Shown piece by piece: positions 13,782-39,706 of a DNA stretch of 54,602 nucleotides. This DNA is from an uncultured Alphaproteobacteria bacterium. Lineage in GTDB: Bacteria > Pseudomonadota > Alphaproteobacteria > HIMB59 > GCA-002718135. The notes under the pieces are model-generated. The model searched no databases, had not been told where the DNA came from, and was given only the letters and a program-made list of their open reading frames with translations. Position numbers and translations under genes: made by a program. Position 1 is the stretch's first letter; each line of letters opens with the position of its first letter. The stretch is taken from the NCBI GenBank assembly GCA_902600225.1, contig CACKIH010000008.1:1-54602 (forward strand), given 5' to 3'.

Positions 13782-13848
13782 GTTTATTTATTTTATTCCT
13801 TAATTAGTAACAATTTTTTTTTTTAATTACTAGATTTCAAGACAAATC

Positions 13849-13877
13849 TTTCAAGAATAATTACTTTCAGGTATAAT
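13849..13877 (+). promoter_or_regulatory. Likely ssrA promoter
   Basis: A perfect TATAAT at 13872-13877 lies 6-7 bases before the presumed start of the tmRNA transcript. The -35 at 17-base spacing (TTTCAA) is poor. A stable RNA gene is expected to have a strong -10, which is what is seen. The assignment is by position and box match only. Confidence 0.45.
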
Positions 13878-13883
13878 AATAAT

Positions 13884-14127
13884 GTTGCCTTGCAACTAAG
13901 ATAATAAATGCTTTGTGCAATAAGTTATTCGGACCCGGGGGCGGTACCCGGCGTCTCCACCAATATGGGGACGAAATAGGTTTGACGGTAATTCAAAGAC
14001 AAAGACTTTATCCGGTATTGTACCACCGTTATCGGGCTATTTTATAAACGCTAACGATAATAGATTAGCACTTGCTGCCTAGATACTAGGTGAGCGCGGT
14101 CAGGGGCACCGAGCAACAGAACGCCCC
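13884..14127 (+). ncRNA. ssrA: Two-piece, circularly permuted tmRNA (alpha type)
   Basis: The acceptor piece comes first and ends in ACCA at 13962. Only four bases (ATAT) then separate it from the coding piece, which starts GGGGACG at 13967. GGGGACG pairs with CGTCTCC of the acceptor piece to give the seven-base acceptor stem, with G-U at the third pair, the alanyl-tRNA synthetase identity element. CTTTGT in the acceptor piece can pair with ACAAAG (13999-14004) as P2. The tag reading frame is 14050-14082, encoding ANDNRLALAA then TAG. The gene ends with a pseudoknot: CGGT/ACCG (14097-14100 with 14108-14111) interleaved with GGGGC/GCCCC (14103-14107 with 14123-14127). The T-loop lacks a standard TTC. 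It rescues stalled ribosomes and tags proteins for ClpXP. The 5' boundary is approximate. Confidence 0.93.
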
Positions 14128-14137
14128 ACTACATTCT
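14101..14137 (+). repeat. ssrA tail repeat, copy 1 (functional tail, attL-like)
   Basis: The core GGCACCGAGCAACAGAACGC plus CCCA (14105-14128) is the 3' pseudoknot of the tmRNA and recurs three more times within 3.3 kb. The flank after the core, CTACATT, is shared with copy 3 but not with copies 2 and 4. In a permuted ssrA this is the 3' end of the gene, the position where tmRNA-targeting integrases normally recombine. Confidence 0.8.
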
Positions 14138-14183
14138 TGTTTTTCTAAGCTTTAAAAAGAATATTTATAAATTGCCCTTTGGG

Positions 14184-14202
14184 TGTGCCGTCTATGTGCC
14201 GT
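14184..14202 (+). repeat. Paired TGTGCCGT direct repeats (left arm)
   Basis: Two copies of TGTGCCGT at 14184-14191 and 14195-14202, 11 bases start to start, about 60 bases inside the copy 1 tail. An equal pair with the same 11-base phase and orientation occurs at 15269-15287. The geometry resembles arm-type binding sites of a tyrosine recombinase flanking an att core. That role is inferred. Confidence 0.6.
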
Positions 14203-14221
14203 TTTAAATTAAATTTTTAAT

Positions 14222-14947
14222 CTAACTAATTAAAGTAATTTTATCACTATCGTAAGAATTTTTAGGTTGCTTATTTAAAATAATTTTTTTTACAAATCCT
14301 AAATCTTTTTCTTTTGCAGTTTTATAAGATTTGATTATTTTTGCACCAGTGAACTTTGAAAAAATATTTAAAAGATTATCTTCCGACTTATTTTTTTTTG
14401 TTTTTAAAATATTAACCCAAACGGGTATTATCTTTATTTTACCAATTTTATAGTCAGGAATAACTTGGTCATAATAGTGTCTAAACCAATCACTTTTATC
14501 TAATAATTTTGATCGTTCGTTTGGTGTTTTATCATAAAAATTTAATCTCAATTGGAAAACTAAATTCCAAATACTACCGCTATTAAAACTTTTTAGAATA
14601 TCCCCATAAAAATAGTCATCTTTGTTTTTGTTTCTTTTTGGAAATTTTTTGAGCATTTTTTTTATTTCATTTAAATTTTTTTTGAATATTTGAGAAATAT
14701 TTTTTAATCCTAGTTCGGGTATATCTCCCGGCAACATTGTATAGTCCCATGATTGTAATTTTGGCCTAATTAATAATAAAACTTTGTTTTTTTTAGCAGC
14801 TATAATTAATAAATTTTTTAATTGGCTAAAAGAAGTAAATTTTTTATCATCTATAATTGCAATACATACATTTTTATACTCCGTATTTTTATCAACACGA
14901 AATACAAGAGTTGTATACTCATCTATTATTAATTTTTTATTACTCAT
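14222..14947 (-). CDS. Hypothetical protein in ssrA-associated cassette
   Basis: 241 residues, Lys-rich, no signal peptide or membrane segment, and no family I recognise. Visible pieces are an N-terminal alpha/beta-like stretch (KKLIIDEYTTLVFRVD, then NVCIAIIDDKKF), a central basic segment (FPKRNKNKDDYFYGDI) and DWFRHYYDQVIPDYKIGKI near residue 155. It overlaps the downstream end of the 95-residue membrane gene by 8 bases, so the two form one transcription unit, with the membrane gene first. Both lie between ssrA tail copies 1 and 2 and are probably cargo of a small integrated element. Confidence 0.6.
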   Translation of the reverse strand: MSNKKLIIDEYTTLVFRVDKNTEYKNVCIAIIDDKKFTSFSQLKNLLIIAAKKNKVLLLIRPKLQSWDYTMLPGDIPELGLKNISQIFKKNLNEIKKMLKKFPKRNKNKDDYFYGDILKSFNSGSIWNLVFQLRLNFYDKTPNERSKLLDKSDWFRHYYDQVIPDYKIGKIKIIPVWVNILKTKKNKSEDNLLNIFSKFTGAKIIKSYKTAKEKDLGFVKKIILNKQPKNSYDSDKITLIS

Positions 14948-15227
14948 ATTGCTTAAAATCTTCTAATCTCTCTTTTCTTTTAATTAAATAATCGTCATCA
15001 ACTAGTAGTTTTTTTGTATCTTTTATATCCGAAATTATAGTTCTAGAATTATGATCTATTTTATCTAATTTTTCATCAAGTGTTTTATAATTATGGTTAT
15101 GCGCCTTCATTGACTCTTTTAAATTTCTATCAATATTTTTTACGAGTTGATAGATATTGTATCCAAAAATCATCATTCCAAATAATAAAATTAAAATTAA
15201 AAATGTAATTATTTCAATATTCATCAC
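14940..15227 (-). CDS. Small membrane-anchored coiled-coil protein
   Basis: 95 residues. A single N-terminal membrane segment (about residues 4-26, MNIEIITFLILILLFGMMIF region) is followed by a highly charged helix (about 30-90), probably a coiled coil facing the cytoplasm. No enzyme motif is visible. It is the first gene of a two-gene unit with the 241-residue protein. The layout would fit a membrane tether for its partner, which is inference only. No homology is recognised. Confidence 0.55.
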   Translation of the reverse strand: MMNIEIITFLILILLFGMMIFGYNIYQLVKNIDRNLKESMKAHNHNYKTLDEKLDKIDHNSRTIISDIKDTKKLLVDDDYLIKRKERLEDFKQYE

Positions 15228-15268
15228 TTTATCCTACCATGTTATTCTATTAATTTTGAGATAAAATT

Positions 15269-15287
15269 TGTGCCGTTTATGTGCCGT
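15269..15287 (+). repeat. Paired TGTGCCGT direct repeats (right arm)
   Basis: TGTGCCGT at 15269-15276 and 15280-15287, with the same 11-base phase and orientation as the pair at 14184-14202. A third single copy is at 15391-15398, 20 bases before tail copy 2. Together with the left pair they bracket the two-gene cassette. Confidence 0.6.
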
Positions 15288-15332
15288 TTCAACATTAAAA
15301 ATTTAGTATTTTATAAAATTAATGATATGATG

Positions 15333-15362
15333 TTTTTAAGAAAGGATTAGCGAATTTATTAG
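15333..15362 (+). repeat. 30-base flank repeat, copy A
   Basis: It starts TTTTTAAGAAAGGATTAGCG and ends AATTTATTAG. It matches 16624-16653 at 28 of 30 positions and has a diverged relative near 17235-17275. Each copy lies upstream of a displaced ssrA tail (copies 2, 3 and 4), so it belongs to a longer att-like end rather than to a gene. Confidence 0.65.
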
Positions 15363-15418
15363 AGTTTGCTTAAACTTTTGGGCAAAGTTTTGTGCCGTTC
15401 TACATGAGCCCCGTTTAA

Positions 15419-15442
15419 GGCACCGAGCAACAGAACGCCCCA
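15419..15442 (+). repeat. ssrA tail repeat, copy 2
   Basis: All 24 bases of the core (GGCACCGAGCAACAGAACGC followed by CCCA) are identical to the tmRNA tail, but the preceding CGGTCAGG needed to form the pseudoknot is missing, so it is not a second tmRNA. The right flank ATTAAAG resembles copy 4 (ATTTAAG), not copy 1. Confidence 0.8.
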
Positions 15443-15473
15443 TTAAAGTATTAAATTTTAATTTTTTTGATAT

Positions 15474-16340
15474 TTACAAATTAGGAGTAAAGTGTTTATT
15501 TTGATAATATATTTCATCAACACCAATGTTATCAAAATAAGTGAAATTTTTTTTTGTAAGAAATTTATTTATGCTAAAATCCTCAGGATGATTATTTTCT
15601 ACACTTATTACTTTTATATTAAATTTATCAAAATCTATAGATTGTAAAATGTCTAATTCATTTCCTTCAGTATCTATAGATAAGTAGTTTATTTCTTTAA
15701 TTTCTATTATATTATTAAATAAAGTAGTTTTAATTTTTTGATTTTTAGTTTTTGTTCTATGATCTTTTTTTAAAACCTCTTCTGCATTATTATAAATCTT
15801 ATTTTGTATATAACTCATTTGAGTATAACCTTCTAAAACTTCAATAAACTCAATATCTCTTTCATATTTATCAATAGCTTTATTTATAACTTTGCAGCTC
15901 CTATTTTTAGTTAATTTTTGAAATTGAAGGAATGATGGTTCAATTGCAACACCGTCCCAATTACAAAATTTTTCAAAGTGAAAACAATTGCTACCTGTTA
16001 CTCCATCATATGCTCCAATTTCAACAAAATAACCTGAGGATGTTGATTGATCAAAATCTCTAAAAAAAAATTCTTTTATAATTTTATCTTGACCAGATTG
16101 AGAAAAAAATTGTTCATTCCAATGAAAAAATTTTTCACAATTCCATATTTTTTGTCTTAAAACTCCTCTTAATTTCGAAAAAGGAAGTTTATATAATTTT
16201 GGTAATTGATTTAACACAGTTAAATACACTTTATGAGCGTGTATTTTATTTTCTAAATTTGAATTAAAAAGTTGATCACCATATTTTATTAGTTCGCCAA
16301 GATCTTTATTATTGAAGCTGGTTAAATCTATGTTTTTCAT
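15474..16340 (-). CDS. FkbM family methyltransferase
   Basis: 288 residues. The SAM-binding motif I is GYFVEIGAYDGVTGSN (about 103-118), followed by WDGVAIEPS and, near the C-terminus, INYLSIDTEGNELDILQSIDF, the FkbM signature. The N-terminal 75 residues are a helical extension seen in some FkbM proteins. Such enzymes O-methylate sugars or other small acceptors, often in surface glycan loci, but the substrate cannot be read from sequence. It lies between ssrA tail copies 2 and 3, is transcribed alone, and has no polysaccharide genes beside it, so it is probably accessory cargo. Confidence 0.8.
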   Translation of the reverse strand: MKNIDLTSFNNKDLGELIKYGDQLFNSNLENKIHAHKVYLTVLNQLPKLYKLPFSKLRGVLRQKIWNCEKFFHWNEQFFSQSGQDKIIKEFFFRDFDQSTSSGYFVEIGAYDGVTGSNCFHFEKFCNWDGVAIEPSFLQFQKLTKNRSCKVINKAIDKYERDIEFIEVLEGYTQMSYIQNKIYNNAEEVLKKDHRTKTKNQKIKTTLFNNIIEIKEINYLSIDTEGNELDILQSIDFDKFNIKVISVENNHPEDFSINKFLTKKNFTYFDNIGVDEIYYQNKHFTPNL

Positions 16341-16360
16341 TTGATAGAATTTCTTTAGAT

Positions 16361-16409
16361 TTTATTTAACAGAAGGTAGAACTTAAGAAAATAAATTTTT
16401 CAAAGAAAA
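16361..16409 (+). pseudogene. Relic of a rhodanese-like gene
   Basis: These 49 bases match 17547-17595, inside the intact rhodanese gene, at 44 positions, including an exact run of 23. The similarity fades outward to roughly 16345-16425. In the reading frame of the intact gene the relic meets a stop (TAA at about 16383), so it is a decayed fragment. It shows that a second copy of the gene beyond the ssrA tail once existed, consistent with repeated integration or exchange at this site. Confidence 0.7.
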
Positions 16410-16423
16410 ATAGATTATGATAT

Positions 16424-16564
16424 GTGAAAAATATTAAATTTAAATTAAAATCAGTTTTTAGACTAGTGAAGAAATTATTATCCTTAATTAAAAATAAAAA
16501 AAGACTTCGAAGAACCCAAACAAGAAATCAGATAAATAAGGAAAAGTCACTACAAAGTTTCTAA
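16424..16564 (+). CDS. Possible 46-residue basic peptide
   Basis: A GTG-initiated frame encodes a Lys/Arg-rich peptide with no Asp and one Glu, containing FKLKSVFRLVKKLLSLIKNK, an amphipathic cationic helix by eye. There is no clear Shine-Dalgarno and AT-rich spacer can produce such frames by chance. It lies between the rhodanese relic and tail copy 3. Probably not a gene; listed because nothing else occupies this stretch. Confidence 0.15.
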   Translation: MKNIKFKLKSVFRLVKKLLSLIKNKKRLRRTQTRNQINKEKSLQSF

Positions 16565-16623
16565 GAAGAAGTTTTCCAAAGCCTTATTTTCTATTAACTA
16601 TGATTTATAATATGGTAATAAGT

Positions 16624-16653
16624 TTTTTAAGAAAAGATTAACGAATTTATTAG
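16624..16653 (+). repeat. 30-base flank repeat, copy B
   Basis: It starts TTTTTAAGAAAAGATTAACG and ends AATTTATTAG, 28/30 identical to 15333-15362. It is only 17 bases upstream of tail copy 3, against 56 bases for copy 2, so about 39 bases have been lost between repeat and core here. Confidence 0.65.
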
Positions 16654-16670
16654 TTTGGTTCACGTACATG

Positions 16671-16695
16671 GCAACAGAACACCCCACTACATTTT
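16671..16695 (+). repeat. ssrA tail repeat, copy 3 (degenerate)
   Basis: GCAACAGAACACCCCACTAC then ATTTT. It lacks the GGCACCGA part of the core and has one substitution (A for G before CCCC). Its right flank CACTACATT is the same as that of copy 1, marking it as the element-side junction. Confidence 0.7.
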
Positions 16696-16765
16696 TAAAT
16701 TTTGATTCTTTTCTTTTGTTTGTTTAAGTTGCTCTAAATTTGTGCAAAAATAAATTAAAATTTTT

Positions 16766-17122
16766 CTAATTTTCACCAAACCATTCCCAAATAACTTCGG
16801 CAATAATATCACAGCTTGTTTGACCTGATTCAATTACTAAAGCTGCACCTTCTGCACCATTTTCCCAAGCCAATTCTTGGCTTTCAGTTAAATGATCTAA
16901 CTCTGATGAGTATCTTTCAAATCTAGGACTTTCTTGTAATCTTTCTGTTATTAAAGTGTAATATTGATTATCTATACAATTTTCTTCATAAACAAAGATT
17001 TGAACCCATAATCCCCCTAAAGTAGCTATATCCTCATTAGAAACTTCTACATCATGAAAGGCTAGAGCAGAATTAAAAAAAAATAAGAAGACTATGATTT
17101 TTTTTATTAATTTTAGAAACAT
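16766..17122 (-). CDS. Small secreted hypothetical protein
   Basis: 118 residues. An N-terminal signal peptide (basic MFLKLIKK, hydrophobic IVFLFFFNSALA, cleavage near residue 21) leads an acidic mature domain of about 97 residues with two cysteines (ENCIDN and QTSCDI), which could form a disulfide. No family is recognised. It is flanked by ssrA tail copies 3 and 4 and so is probably accessory. Confidence 0.6.
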   Translation of the reverse strand: MFLKLIKKIIVFLFFFNSALAFHDVEVSNEDIATLGGLWVQIFVYEENCIDNQYYTLITERLQESPRFERYSSELDHLTESQELAWENGAEGAALVIESGQTSCDIIAEVIWEWFGEN

Positions 17123-17368
17123 AATTTAAACATACAATAAATTTTAAATAATTTAACTAAATTTTTATATATTGTGTGTAATATTTGCGTAATACAATTA
17201 AAAATTCTCTCTCCTAAAAAATAAATATGATATAAAAATTTTTAAAAAAGAATGAGTGAATTAGCTTTAATTTGCTTTTGATTTTAGGTGTTTAAGTGTA
17301 CGTAATGGAATGAGGACTTGTTCCTGCACCAAGCAACAGGAAACCCCATTTAAGGAGGTAAAGAAAAT
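17123..17368. other. Spacer with diverged flank repeat and tail copy 4
   Basis: 246 bases without a gene. The segment 17225-17275 is a diverged relative of the 30-base flank repeat. Tail copy 4 is at 17326-17353. The region ends in the strong ribosome site AAGGAGG of the rhodanese gene, 13 bases before its ATG. The rhodanese promoter should lie here. Likely boxes are not distinctive in this AT-rich background. Confidence 0.45.
17326..17353 (+). repeat. ssrA tail repeat, copy 4 (outer, attR-like)
   Basis: GCACCAAGCAACAGGAAACC then CCATTTAA, a diverged version of the tmRNA tail (18 of 22 core bases match copy 1). Its right flank matches copy 2. It immediately precedes the rhodanese ribosome site and marks the border between accessory patch and core genome. 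It can also form TTCCTG/CAGGAA pairing with its own upstream bases. Confidence 0.65.
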
Positions 17369-17734
17369 ATGAAAAAATTTGAAGATTTGATGAATGTAAA
17401 AAATGAAATTGAAAATATTTCTGCATCACAAGCAAAAGAAAAACTAAATGATCCAAATGTACAATTTATTGATGTTAGGGATAAAACAAGTTTTGAGAAA
17501 GGAACAATAGGAAATGCAATTCATTTAGATAGAGCTTTTCTTGAATTTTATTTAGCAGAAGGTAGTCCCTTAGAAAATAAATTTTTCAAAGAAAATCCTG
17601 ATAAAGAATATGTTGTATTTTGTGGTGTTGGTGGACAAGGAACTTTATCAACTAAAACAATGAAAGACATGGGCATTAAGAATGTAAAGAATATTACTGG
17701 AGGTATGACTGAATGGGAAAAATTAAAAGAATAA
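17369..17734 (+). CDS. Single-domain rhodanese-like protein
   Basis: 121 residues with one rhodanese domain: DPNVQFIDVRDKTSFEKGTI, then the active-site loop YVVFCGVGGQGTLST with the catalytic cysteine at about residue 89, and NITGGMTEWEKL at the end. The loop CGVGGQ lacks the usual final Arg, as in several environmental homologues, so the sulfur acceptor is uncertain. It probably carries a persulfide in the cytoplasm. It has a strong Shine-Dalgarno (AAGGAGG), rare in this window. A 49-base relic of the same gene lies 1.2 kb upstream. Confidence 0.85.
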   Translation: MKKFEDLMNVKNEIENISASQAKEKLNDPNVQFIDVRDKTSFEKGTIGNAIHLDRAFLEFYLAEGSPLENKFFKENPDKEYVVFCGVGGQGTLSTKTMKDMGIKNVKNITGGMTEWEKLKE

Positions 17735-17807: not shown

Positions 17808-18215
17808 ATGATAAAAAAATTATTTATTTTTATATTTTTATTTATTTATTCATCTTCATCTATTGCTCTTACAAAAAATGATTTTTCAAATAATCAACTA
17901 TTATGTCCAACATTATTATGGGGATTTGAATTTATTTCGCCAAATAAAGTCAAAGTCATTAATACAGACCTTAATAACGTAACATCAATAGATGAATATT
18001 ATTATGAGGTAGATTTAAAACTTTCCTACATTAACATATTTTCGAATAAAAATAATATTAGAGATAGAGTTTATTCTATTGAACTTAATTCATTAAGAGT
18101 TGATGTTTGGGCTATGACTGGTGGGGGATTTACAACAAGAGAAATGTTTCCAATTGGATTATGTAAGTTTGTAGAAATTAATAATTTTTTATCTTACATT
18201 GAAAGTTTAAAATGA
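17808..18215 (+). CDS. Hypothetical exported protein upstream of sspB
   Basis: 135 residues with a clear signal peptide (MIKKLFIFIFLFIYSSSSIA, cleavage near residue 20). The mature part is beta-rich by eye and has two cysteines (LLCPTLLWGFE and GLCKFVEI) that could pair. No family is recognised. It overlaps sspB by 4 bases (ATGA), so the two are translationally coupled, although one product is exported and the other is cytoplasmic. Confidence 0.65.
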   Translation: MIKKLFIFIFLFIYSSSSIALTKNDFSNNQLLCPTLLWGFEFISPNKVKVINTDLNNVTSIDEYYYEVDLKLSYINIFSNKNNIRDRVYSIELNSLRVDVWAMTGGGFTTREMFPIGLCKFVEINNFLSYIESLK

Positions 18216-39319: not shown

Positions 39320-39365
39320 ATATGAATTATTCATAAATGTTCTTTGTATGTTCTCAATTAATTCA

Positions 39366-39700
39366 AAGATGGTGCATAAGCCGGGTTCTGTAATTTAATA
39401 AAATTGATGATCATTAATCTAGAACAAATGTCACCATTTGTTTCAAGCAGTCTACCCGAATAGCTCAGCTGGAACTGATTGCCATTCCTATTTGACCTTG
39501 CTCCAAAAAGGGTTTGCAAAGCCTTTTTTGTTACCAAAAAAGCGGTAAGCTCTTACCTTACCTTTTCACCCTTACCTTTTCAGGCGGTATATTTTCTGTT
39601 GCACTTTCCCTAAGCTTTCACTTGCCAGGTGTTACCTGGTTTTTGTTCCAGTGGAGCCCGGACTTTCCTCTTGATTTCTCAAGCGATCATCGCACCATCA
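39366..39700 (-). ncRNA. rnpB: RNase P RNA (bacterial type A)
   Basis: On the minus strand the transcript begins GATGGTGCG and ends ...GCACCATC, which pair as helix P1. Universally conserved elements are present: GAGGAAAGTCCGGGCTCC (39671-39654), GGGAAAGTGCAACAGAAA, and at the 3' end ACAGAACCCGGCTTA. The length is about 335 bases. It is the catalytic RNA that matures tRNA 5' ends. It is followed 87 bases later by mraZ with no clear terminator between, so some transcripts may enter the dcw cluster. Ends are accurate to a few bases. Confidence 0.95.
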
Positions 39701-39706
39701 AATAGC

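Follow-up and report, generated by a model that had tools for sequence, protein, structure and literature searches.

How did four copies of the 3′ tail of a single ssrA gene come to lie in a row on the chromosome of a marine alphaproteobacterium? This question is raised by a DNA stretch of 54,602 nucleotides (hereafter the window), which is part of contig 8 of an assembly of 1.25 Mb in 48 contigs, obtained from an uncultured member of the HIMB59 lineage. In the window, a permuted ssrA (tmRNA) gene is separated from a rhodanese gene by three further copies of its tail and a few accessory genes. We consider it very probable (about 85%) that minimal integrative elements, which are site-specific and non-autonomous and are moved by an integrase acting in trans, use the interval between ssrA and the rhodanese gene as an integration hotspot.

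Tail copies at empty and occupied sites

The ssrA gene, the putative integration target, is of the alphaproteobacterial form and extends from position 13845 to 14130 on the plus strand (RF01849, 218 bits; RF04321, 150 bits; ARAGORN agrees). Its native tail GGCACCGAGCAACAGAACGCCCCA at 14105 to 14128 is the putative attachment (att) core at the 3′ end of the gene. A second copy, identical at all 24 positions, is located at 15419 to 15442 and forms the right end of the first element. The third (16663 to 16686) and fourth copy (17325 to 17348), on the plus strand like the others, contain six and five mismatches (18/24 and 19/24 matches), and the fourth lies 20 nt before the rhodanese gene. The four copies claimed by a first-pass annotation of this DNA are thus real, and the positions which it gave for the third and fourth copy (16671 and 17326) fall within them. 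A search of the whole 1.25-Mb assembly with a 21-mer of the tail and up to three mismatches matched only the first two copies, and the reversed control pattern gave no match there. The genes between the copies were also described correctly as merely accessory (two unknowns, an FkbM methyltransferase and a small protein of 118 aa, probably secreted as judged by eye), as was the lack of an integrase, since no match to PF00589 was obtained on the contig.

To compare the interval among relatives, 102 genomes of the genus, including that of the window, were used, 74 of which gave an ssrA match. The region behind ssrA was taken from the 73 other genomes, in one case (G001) twice. Of the resulting 74 loci, 73 could be oriented by their similarity to the ssrA gene of the window. 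The one that could not be oriented (L103) was dropped, and the remaining 73 together with the window made up 74 sequences, 72 of them with a recognised tail. Several contigs stop soon after ssrA, which biases the sample against large elements. A rhodanese start downstream on the same strand was present in 44 loci including the window, L096 with its inverted rhodanese gene being left out. Seven of the 44 sites were empty, with a single tail and the rhodanese gene 17 to 19 nt further on. The other 37 were occupied, mostly with extra tails, and the rhodanese gene began 556 to 6358 nt after the tail (3238 nt in the window). This is the comparison which the first-pass annotation had proposed, and the coexistence of empty and occupied loci excludes an arrangement without presence/absence variation.

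At least two tails were found in 44 of the 74 loci, with a maximum of eight. The units between the tails had a median length of 1046 nt, contained mostly one or two genes and, save for one broken copy, no recognised integrase. In the 23 loci with at least three tails, the ssrA tail showed on average 0.65 mismatches of 24, the middle tails 4.05 and the last tail 4.74. An order of arrival in which the oldest element is the farthest was not supported, since middle and last tails hardly differ, though distal tails have diverged much more than ssrA tails. Two full-length ssrA matches were detected in G001 (C33, L006, and C55, L057), which are 67% and 85% identical to that of the window in the aligned parts. 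This suggests that the bin is mixed.

Matched words at the element ends

Element 1 of the window (14105 to 15442) is intact at both ends, contains no integrase and harbors TGTGCCGT, its word, at each of the five positions expected. On the plus strand, a left word pair with an 11-bp phase (TGTGCCGTCTATGTGCCGT) is located at 14184 to 14202, a right pair (TGTGCCGTTTATGTGCCGT) at 15269 to 15287 and a single TGTGCCGT at 15391 to 15398, about 28 nt before the core. The right pair and the single word enclose the scaffold of a type A right end (see below), TTTTTAAGAAAGGATTAGCG..GCTTAAACTTTTGGG, at 15333 to 15389. Such phased repeats occur in many units. A direct repeat pair followed 78 of 156 tails, compared to 27 of 370 random pieces, and the spacing was 11 in 51 of the 78 pairs, 12 in 25 and 13 in two.

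To score the agreement of both ends, a GC-containing word of at least 8 nt had to be shared by the first 130 and the last 110 nt of a segment longer than 300 nt. The own ends matched in 43 of 79 segments as against 7.7% of cross pairs. Because kinship inflates this count, the segments were grouped by similarity using single linkage, which yielded 25 groups, the largest comprising 42 of the 79 segments. Sixteen groups hold at least one member with matched ends, while pairs across groups matched in 149 of 4396 cases. Among group representatives, 15 of 25 matched, the maximum reached in 10,000 permutations being 7. Hence, matched end words occur in the majority of groups.

According to the positions of the words, we distinguished three layouts, a grouping of our own. 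In layout A, a pair lies about 56 nt after the left core, while a pair about 150/139 nt (in some elements 130 to 140 nt) and a single word about 27 nt precede the right core; its words are TGTGCCGT, ACGCGTAAT, ACGCGTC, GTGCGTAAT and GCGACTT. Layout B (TGTGCAC, GTCGTA, AGTCACA) has a pair at about 55 nt and another at about 81/70 nt, some elements having one right copy only. In layout C (CTACGAAG, TGCACACACT, GAGCACACAG), the words start from about 45 to 49 nt and are then found near 104, 59 and 47 nt. Fourteen type A elements, hand-picked from the 79 segments, have an alignable right end: at 60 to 80 nt from the end the value was 0.91 of pairs, in the interior 0.03. When at most eight candidates per genome were scored, the matches in the genus to the type A right-end scaffold lay behind ssrA in each genome concerned but G064, where they occurred on two contigs without ssrA match; one match in G091 was inverted and without core. 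A type A word test based on a loose scaffold match, which covered 21 of 78 elements and let in mixed-end elements and the type B elements L034, L041 and L062, gave an own-pair total that was equalled in 31 of 20,000 permutations. The word pair of the window, TGTGCCGTNNATGTGCCGT, was found at three places in the 102 genomes, each adjoining an ssrA tail. In the sister family, a TGCACACACT pair follows a tail match in G121, and L156 contains a segment between tails whose two ends have a word in common.

The first-pass annotation had left it open whether the units are remnants or non-autonomous elements. Both are present, since element 1 is intact at its ends and elements 2 and 3 are decayed. Element 2 (15419 to 16686) lacks a recognisable left end. 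It contains the gene of the FkbM-family methyltransferase (15474 to 16340, minus strand; PF05050, 3.5e-17) and, behind it, a rhodanese-gene fragment of 60 nt (16350 to 16409, plus strand), which has the same orientation as the rhodanese gene and is 85% identical to 17536 to 17595. This fragment may be debris of a past duplication, recombination or rearrangement at the ssrA site. At the right end of element 2, a scaffold-like stretch (16624 to 16653, plus strand) is 93% identical to 15333 to 15362. Element 3 (16663 to 17348) belongs to type A and has decayed; its word resembles GTGCGTAAT, and a single copy of it was assigned by eye to 17298 to 17306. Its cargo is the gene for the 118-aa protein (16766 to 17122, minus strand; no Pfam match), homologues of which, 91 to 95% identical, reside in ssrA segments of four other genomes. 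A decayed right word pair with an 11-bp phase, GTGTGTAAT..TTGCGTAAT, was recognised by eye at 17174 to 17193 (plus strand), where the pair script did not detect it; nor did the script find a pair after the left tail of this element. The decayed right end itself (17225 to 17348, plus strand, including tail copy 4) shows 71% identity to the right end of L082 (E 8.3e-11).

Movement between hosts and candidate integrases

In 90 pairs of elements overlapping by 50% or more, most of them representatives of one common element with a 175-aa gene, the element identity was compared to that of a host marker (thyA-folA-ssrA). Along all 802 nt, segments L034_s0 and L062_s1 show 98.9% identity, with a host marker identity of 74.7%, and they occupy different stack positions next to different neighbours. 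For L021_s0 and L088_s0, the values are 99.5% for the element and 81.1% for the hosts, and the elements of L072, L078 and L079 are 100% identical in hosts of about 90% identity. The elements have thus been transferred between hosts. The interpretation of the units as inserted elements, put forward by the first-pass annotation, is supported by the presence of both empty and occupied sites, and is extended by these transfers and by the phased end repeats, which it did not contain. In the pair L034/L062, the identity starts just after the left core, runs into the right core and stops there. The left tail has the sequence of the recipient, while the right tail has that of the element through GCAACAGAACG and that of the recipient thereafter. 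Since the identity ends in the right core, the sequences of this one element pair place the crossover in or next to GCAACAGAACGCCCC.

These transfers bear on the alternative that the units are nothing but decayed remains, each of them the scar of a complete prophage or integrative element whose integrase was deleted after arrival, so that nothing moves without one. The decay of elements 2 and 3 and of other segments would fit this assumption, as would the broken integrase in segment 1 of L091. However, integrase-less units of 745 to 802 nt are 96 to 100% identical between hosts that are some 10 to 25% apart at flanking core genes. Such units have therefore most likely travelled in their present form, and we regard pure decay as improbable.

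A hotspot of homologous recombination, at which tail repeats and flanks provide the homology for foreign alleles and no site-specific recombinase is involved, is still less likely. It might account for the rhodanese fragment at 16350 to 16409 and for the shared cargo that is inverted in L046_s1 relative to L045_s1, yet it would require ordinary homologous exchange within a core that is too short for it. It is also difficult to reconcile with the matched end words of many elements, and with the halt of the L034_s0/L062_s1 identity at the core despite different stack positions and neighbours. According to the accessible part of a report on streamlined marine HIMB59 genomes, exchange of islands by homologous recombination has been argued from a lack of insertion sequences and tRNA marks (PMC10734472). 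It is very improbable that the tail copies, instead of being att cores, function as terminators of cargo genes or as conserved structured RNAs: the tail is indeed the 3′ part of a structured RNA, but tails 2 to 4 folded no better than shuffled sequences (z 0.17, 0.82 and -0.75; a weak test, the native tail having a z of -0.24 and pseudoknots not being modelled), and cargo and copy number differ between relatives.

If the interval is indeed a hotspot for site-specific elements moved in trans, an element would combine one att core (the 3′ tail of the permuted ssrA) with one or two cargo genes. Two end modules would complete it, in which a single word, specific to the element, recurs several times, always at a set distance from the core. 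Core and arm sites together would constitute a complete lambda-like attP without integrase gene. The core of the element, presumably excised as a circle, would be recombined with the ssrA tail or with a tail copy already present. This would be done by a tyrosine integrase acting in trans, its source being a phage or an autonomous element that has these arm words too. Each integration would rebuild ssrA, a tail copy would mark every junction, and elements would stack up and then decay.

Arm-type sites of lambda-like tyrosine integrases would show such a layout of words. To examine the surroundings of integrase genes, 20 integrase loci of the genus were read, most of the recurrent Xer-like matches (365 aa and similar) and the two integrases at ssrA being left out. 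A word pair with a spacing of exactly 11 precedes the integrase start by 30 to 55 nt in 14 of the loci, some of which are close relatives of each other, and in six of the 20 loci a tRNA gene was called immediately upstream of the integrase. Both ssrA integrases match the PF00589/phrog_1 tyrosine integrases. In L036, the ssrA tail is followed by a GCCGAAGC pair at 57 nt and then by a 340-aa integrase (phrog_1, 7.7e-45). Moreover, the word pair of the window was found in ten IMG/VR contigs, three of which (L171, L177, L178) harbor a phrog_1 integrase that overlaps the pair or is at most 285 nt away, the pair lying beside the 3′ end of the integrase and not its start. Because word pairs precede integrase starts and the word of the window occurs beside viral integrases, the end words look like integrase arm sites. 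The genome of the window itself contains an integrase/Xer-like frame with an internal TAG (G000:C20, 17152 to 17734).

Several observations weigh against this interpretation. No integrase with a cassette word was found in the genomes searched, and thus no cognate integrase. PF00589 matches within about 2 kb of ssrA were obtained in only two genomes, the integrase of L091 being broken and that of L036 residing on a contig that ends soon afterwards. Seven of the ten viral TGTGCCGT contigs gave no integrase match by profile, and a 17-base pattern such as the one used may also match by chance; for six of these seven, one or two frames each, not always the nearest, were compared to PHROGs, again without integrase match. 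The ssrA core was detected in no IMG/VR contig (two exact patterns, no match each) and in the phage collection gave only weak matches (best E about 1). As for other cassette words in viral contigs, the CTACGAAG and TGCACACACT pairs were not found and the ACGCGT pair once, in a contig (L169) without integrase by profile. Viral relatives of the L036 integrase could not be confirmed. On the side of the elements, 36 of the 79 segments, some of them decayed, lack a matched word of 8 nt or more, and L043_s0 and L046_s0 possess an intact 134-aa frame and no visible arms. L055, L066, L069, L087 and L091_s0 have two different end types (left C, right A); we read them as fused elements that have lost the tail between them. 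In four of the 90 pairs, the host marker is more similar than the element, and neither a circular form nor excision was observed. The 20 integrase loci were rejected as the cognate source, since visual comparison showed none of their words to be the same as a cassette word. The closest approach was that of GGTCACA (L140) and TGTCACAA (L127, L128, L133) to AGTCACA of the L038 cassette.

It is conceivable, though we lean slightly against it, that the elements form an addressed cassette pool, in which dozens of cassettes share the ssrA tail as their only dock, the arm words serve as the address that selects the integrase, and end modules and cargo are swapped independently. This would be an integron-type pool made of phage attP parts and served by the integrases of passing phages. 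A site-specific docking site of this kind in a marine alphaproteobacterial genus, working nearly gene by gene, is easily overlooked, because its units lack an integrase and measure about 1 kb. Should the words be integrase addresses, they would be a label readable from the sequence which predicts the phage or element that moves a given gene, and searching for them would be an easy route to non-autonomous cassettes beside other tRNA and tmRNA genes.

Cargo genes and comparable systems

Element 1 carries two cargo genes on the minus strand, both without Pfam match above the cut-off: one for a 241-aa protein of unknown function (14222 to 14947) and one for a 95-aa protein with a probable N-terminal membrane helix as judged by eye (14940 to 15227). 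Only one relative of the 241-aa gene (74% identical) was found in 162 genomes of the order. It resides in a different ssrA element of type A, which has ACGCGTC as its word in place of TGTGCCGT. Similarly, the bactofilin cargo of L046_s1, whose DNA is 84 to 85% identical to that of L045_s1 and L050_s1, is opposite to them in orientation and lies between different end modules. As the same cargo occurs with different words and in both orientations, ends and cargo seem to be exchanged independently.

Segments of 200 to 5000 nt contained 125 frames of at least 60 aa in 73 groups, 83 of the frames pointing towards ssrA. A scan of 60 representatives gave matches to 38 Pfam families, including FkbM (three members) and other methyltransferases, GNAT acetyltransferases (two), a bactofilin, a trypsin-like protease, ArsP and an ArsR-type regulator. 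For the cargo of the window, which includes several proteins of unknown function, neither transfer genes nor a recombinase were among the Pfam matches; serine recombinases were not searched across the genus. A role of the cargo in defence was rejected, since the PADLOC matches were single-member (25 of the 26 families shown: PtuB-like, RT-associated protease, 2OG and others) and no complete system was recognised. A protein of 173 to 175 aa and unknown function is nearly identical throughout 17 loci (including L021, L067 to L070 and L091). Its gene belongs to a very common type C element with the CTACGAAG word, which has probably spread recently. In segments of L042, L045, L050 and L063, mostly of type C, different cargo proteins have similar signal peptides (e.g. 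MKTLLTLFVLLFSSSVFA), as if a common leader had been joined to changing secreted proteins.

Integron arrays resemble the ssrA units in that their cassettes mostly contain a single gene, vary in cargo and each possess a recombination site. Unlike in integrons, no IntI was found at the array described here (no PF00589 on the contig), its ends resemble the attP arms of phages, and its target is ssrA. 'Ca. Methylopumilus', which belongs to a different bacterial class from the host of the window, is likewise a streamlined aquatic bacterium with an additive island. In its flexible genomic island fGI-2, the last 20 nt of a tRNA gene recur between variable cargo of 330 bp to 42 kb; the target is tRNA-Lys instead of ssrA, and the accessible part of the report describes no end words (PMC10872708). 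Tycheposons, as outlined in the same part, are cargo elements of streamlined aquatic bacteria with a tyrosine recombinase, a tRNA border and a size of 4 to 200 kb (PMC10872708). By contrast, the window elements span 0.7 to 1.3 kb, are bordered by ssrA sequences and encode no tyrosine recombinase.

The closest parallel in the target gene is given by the ssrA-specific islands of Dehalococcoides reported by McMurdie in 2011. In the portion of this work available to us, tandem islands with 20-bp tail repeats are described, 16 with and 15 without integration module, and the latter were suggested to be cis-mobilizable (PMC3146451). Tandem units bounded by repeats of the ssrA 3′ end are common to both systems. 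On the other hand, the Dehalococcoides islands are associated with a CcrB-like serine recombinase (DsiB), a T-loop site and lengths in the range of phage genomes (PMC3146451), whereas the elements studied here have ends of the tyrosine-integrase type, units of about 1 kb and, as target, the tail that follows the tag-coding part of a permuted ssrA. Cis-mobilizable elements (CIMEs), according to the excerpt considered, possess attL and attR without integration or transfer genes and undergo tandem accretion (PMC5704250). The same was found here, where tails at 14105 and 15419 represent attL and attR in the target gene and neither an integrase nor transfer genes were recognised. CIMEs are integrative and conjugative or mobilizable elements (ICEs/IMEs) that have lost these genes and are moved with a neighbour (PMC5704250), while the integrase-less units at ssrA appear to travel as such. 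As to an origin by decay, no ICE or IME was seen at ssrA, where only the broken (L091) and the intact integrase (L036) occur. A search of open-licence PMC gave no paper that deals with word-matched ends or with cassettes at ssrA in this lineage; papers on integration at tmRNA genes have appeared in subscription journals, and earlier accounts may exist.

The rhodanese gene (17369 to 17734, plus strand; PF00581, 6.3e-21) is the chromosomal neighbour of the empty site and is followed by the SspB gene. Beside sspB, the window contains a 135-aa gene (17808 to 18215), which in L043 and L046 forms a tail-flanked unit directly behind ssrA, with no visible arm words. Further downstream, a class A RNase P RNA is encoded on the minus strand at 39361 to 39702.

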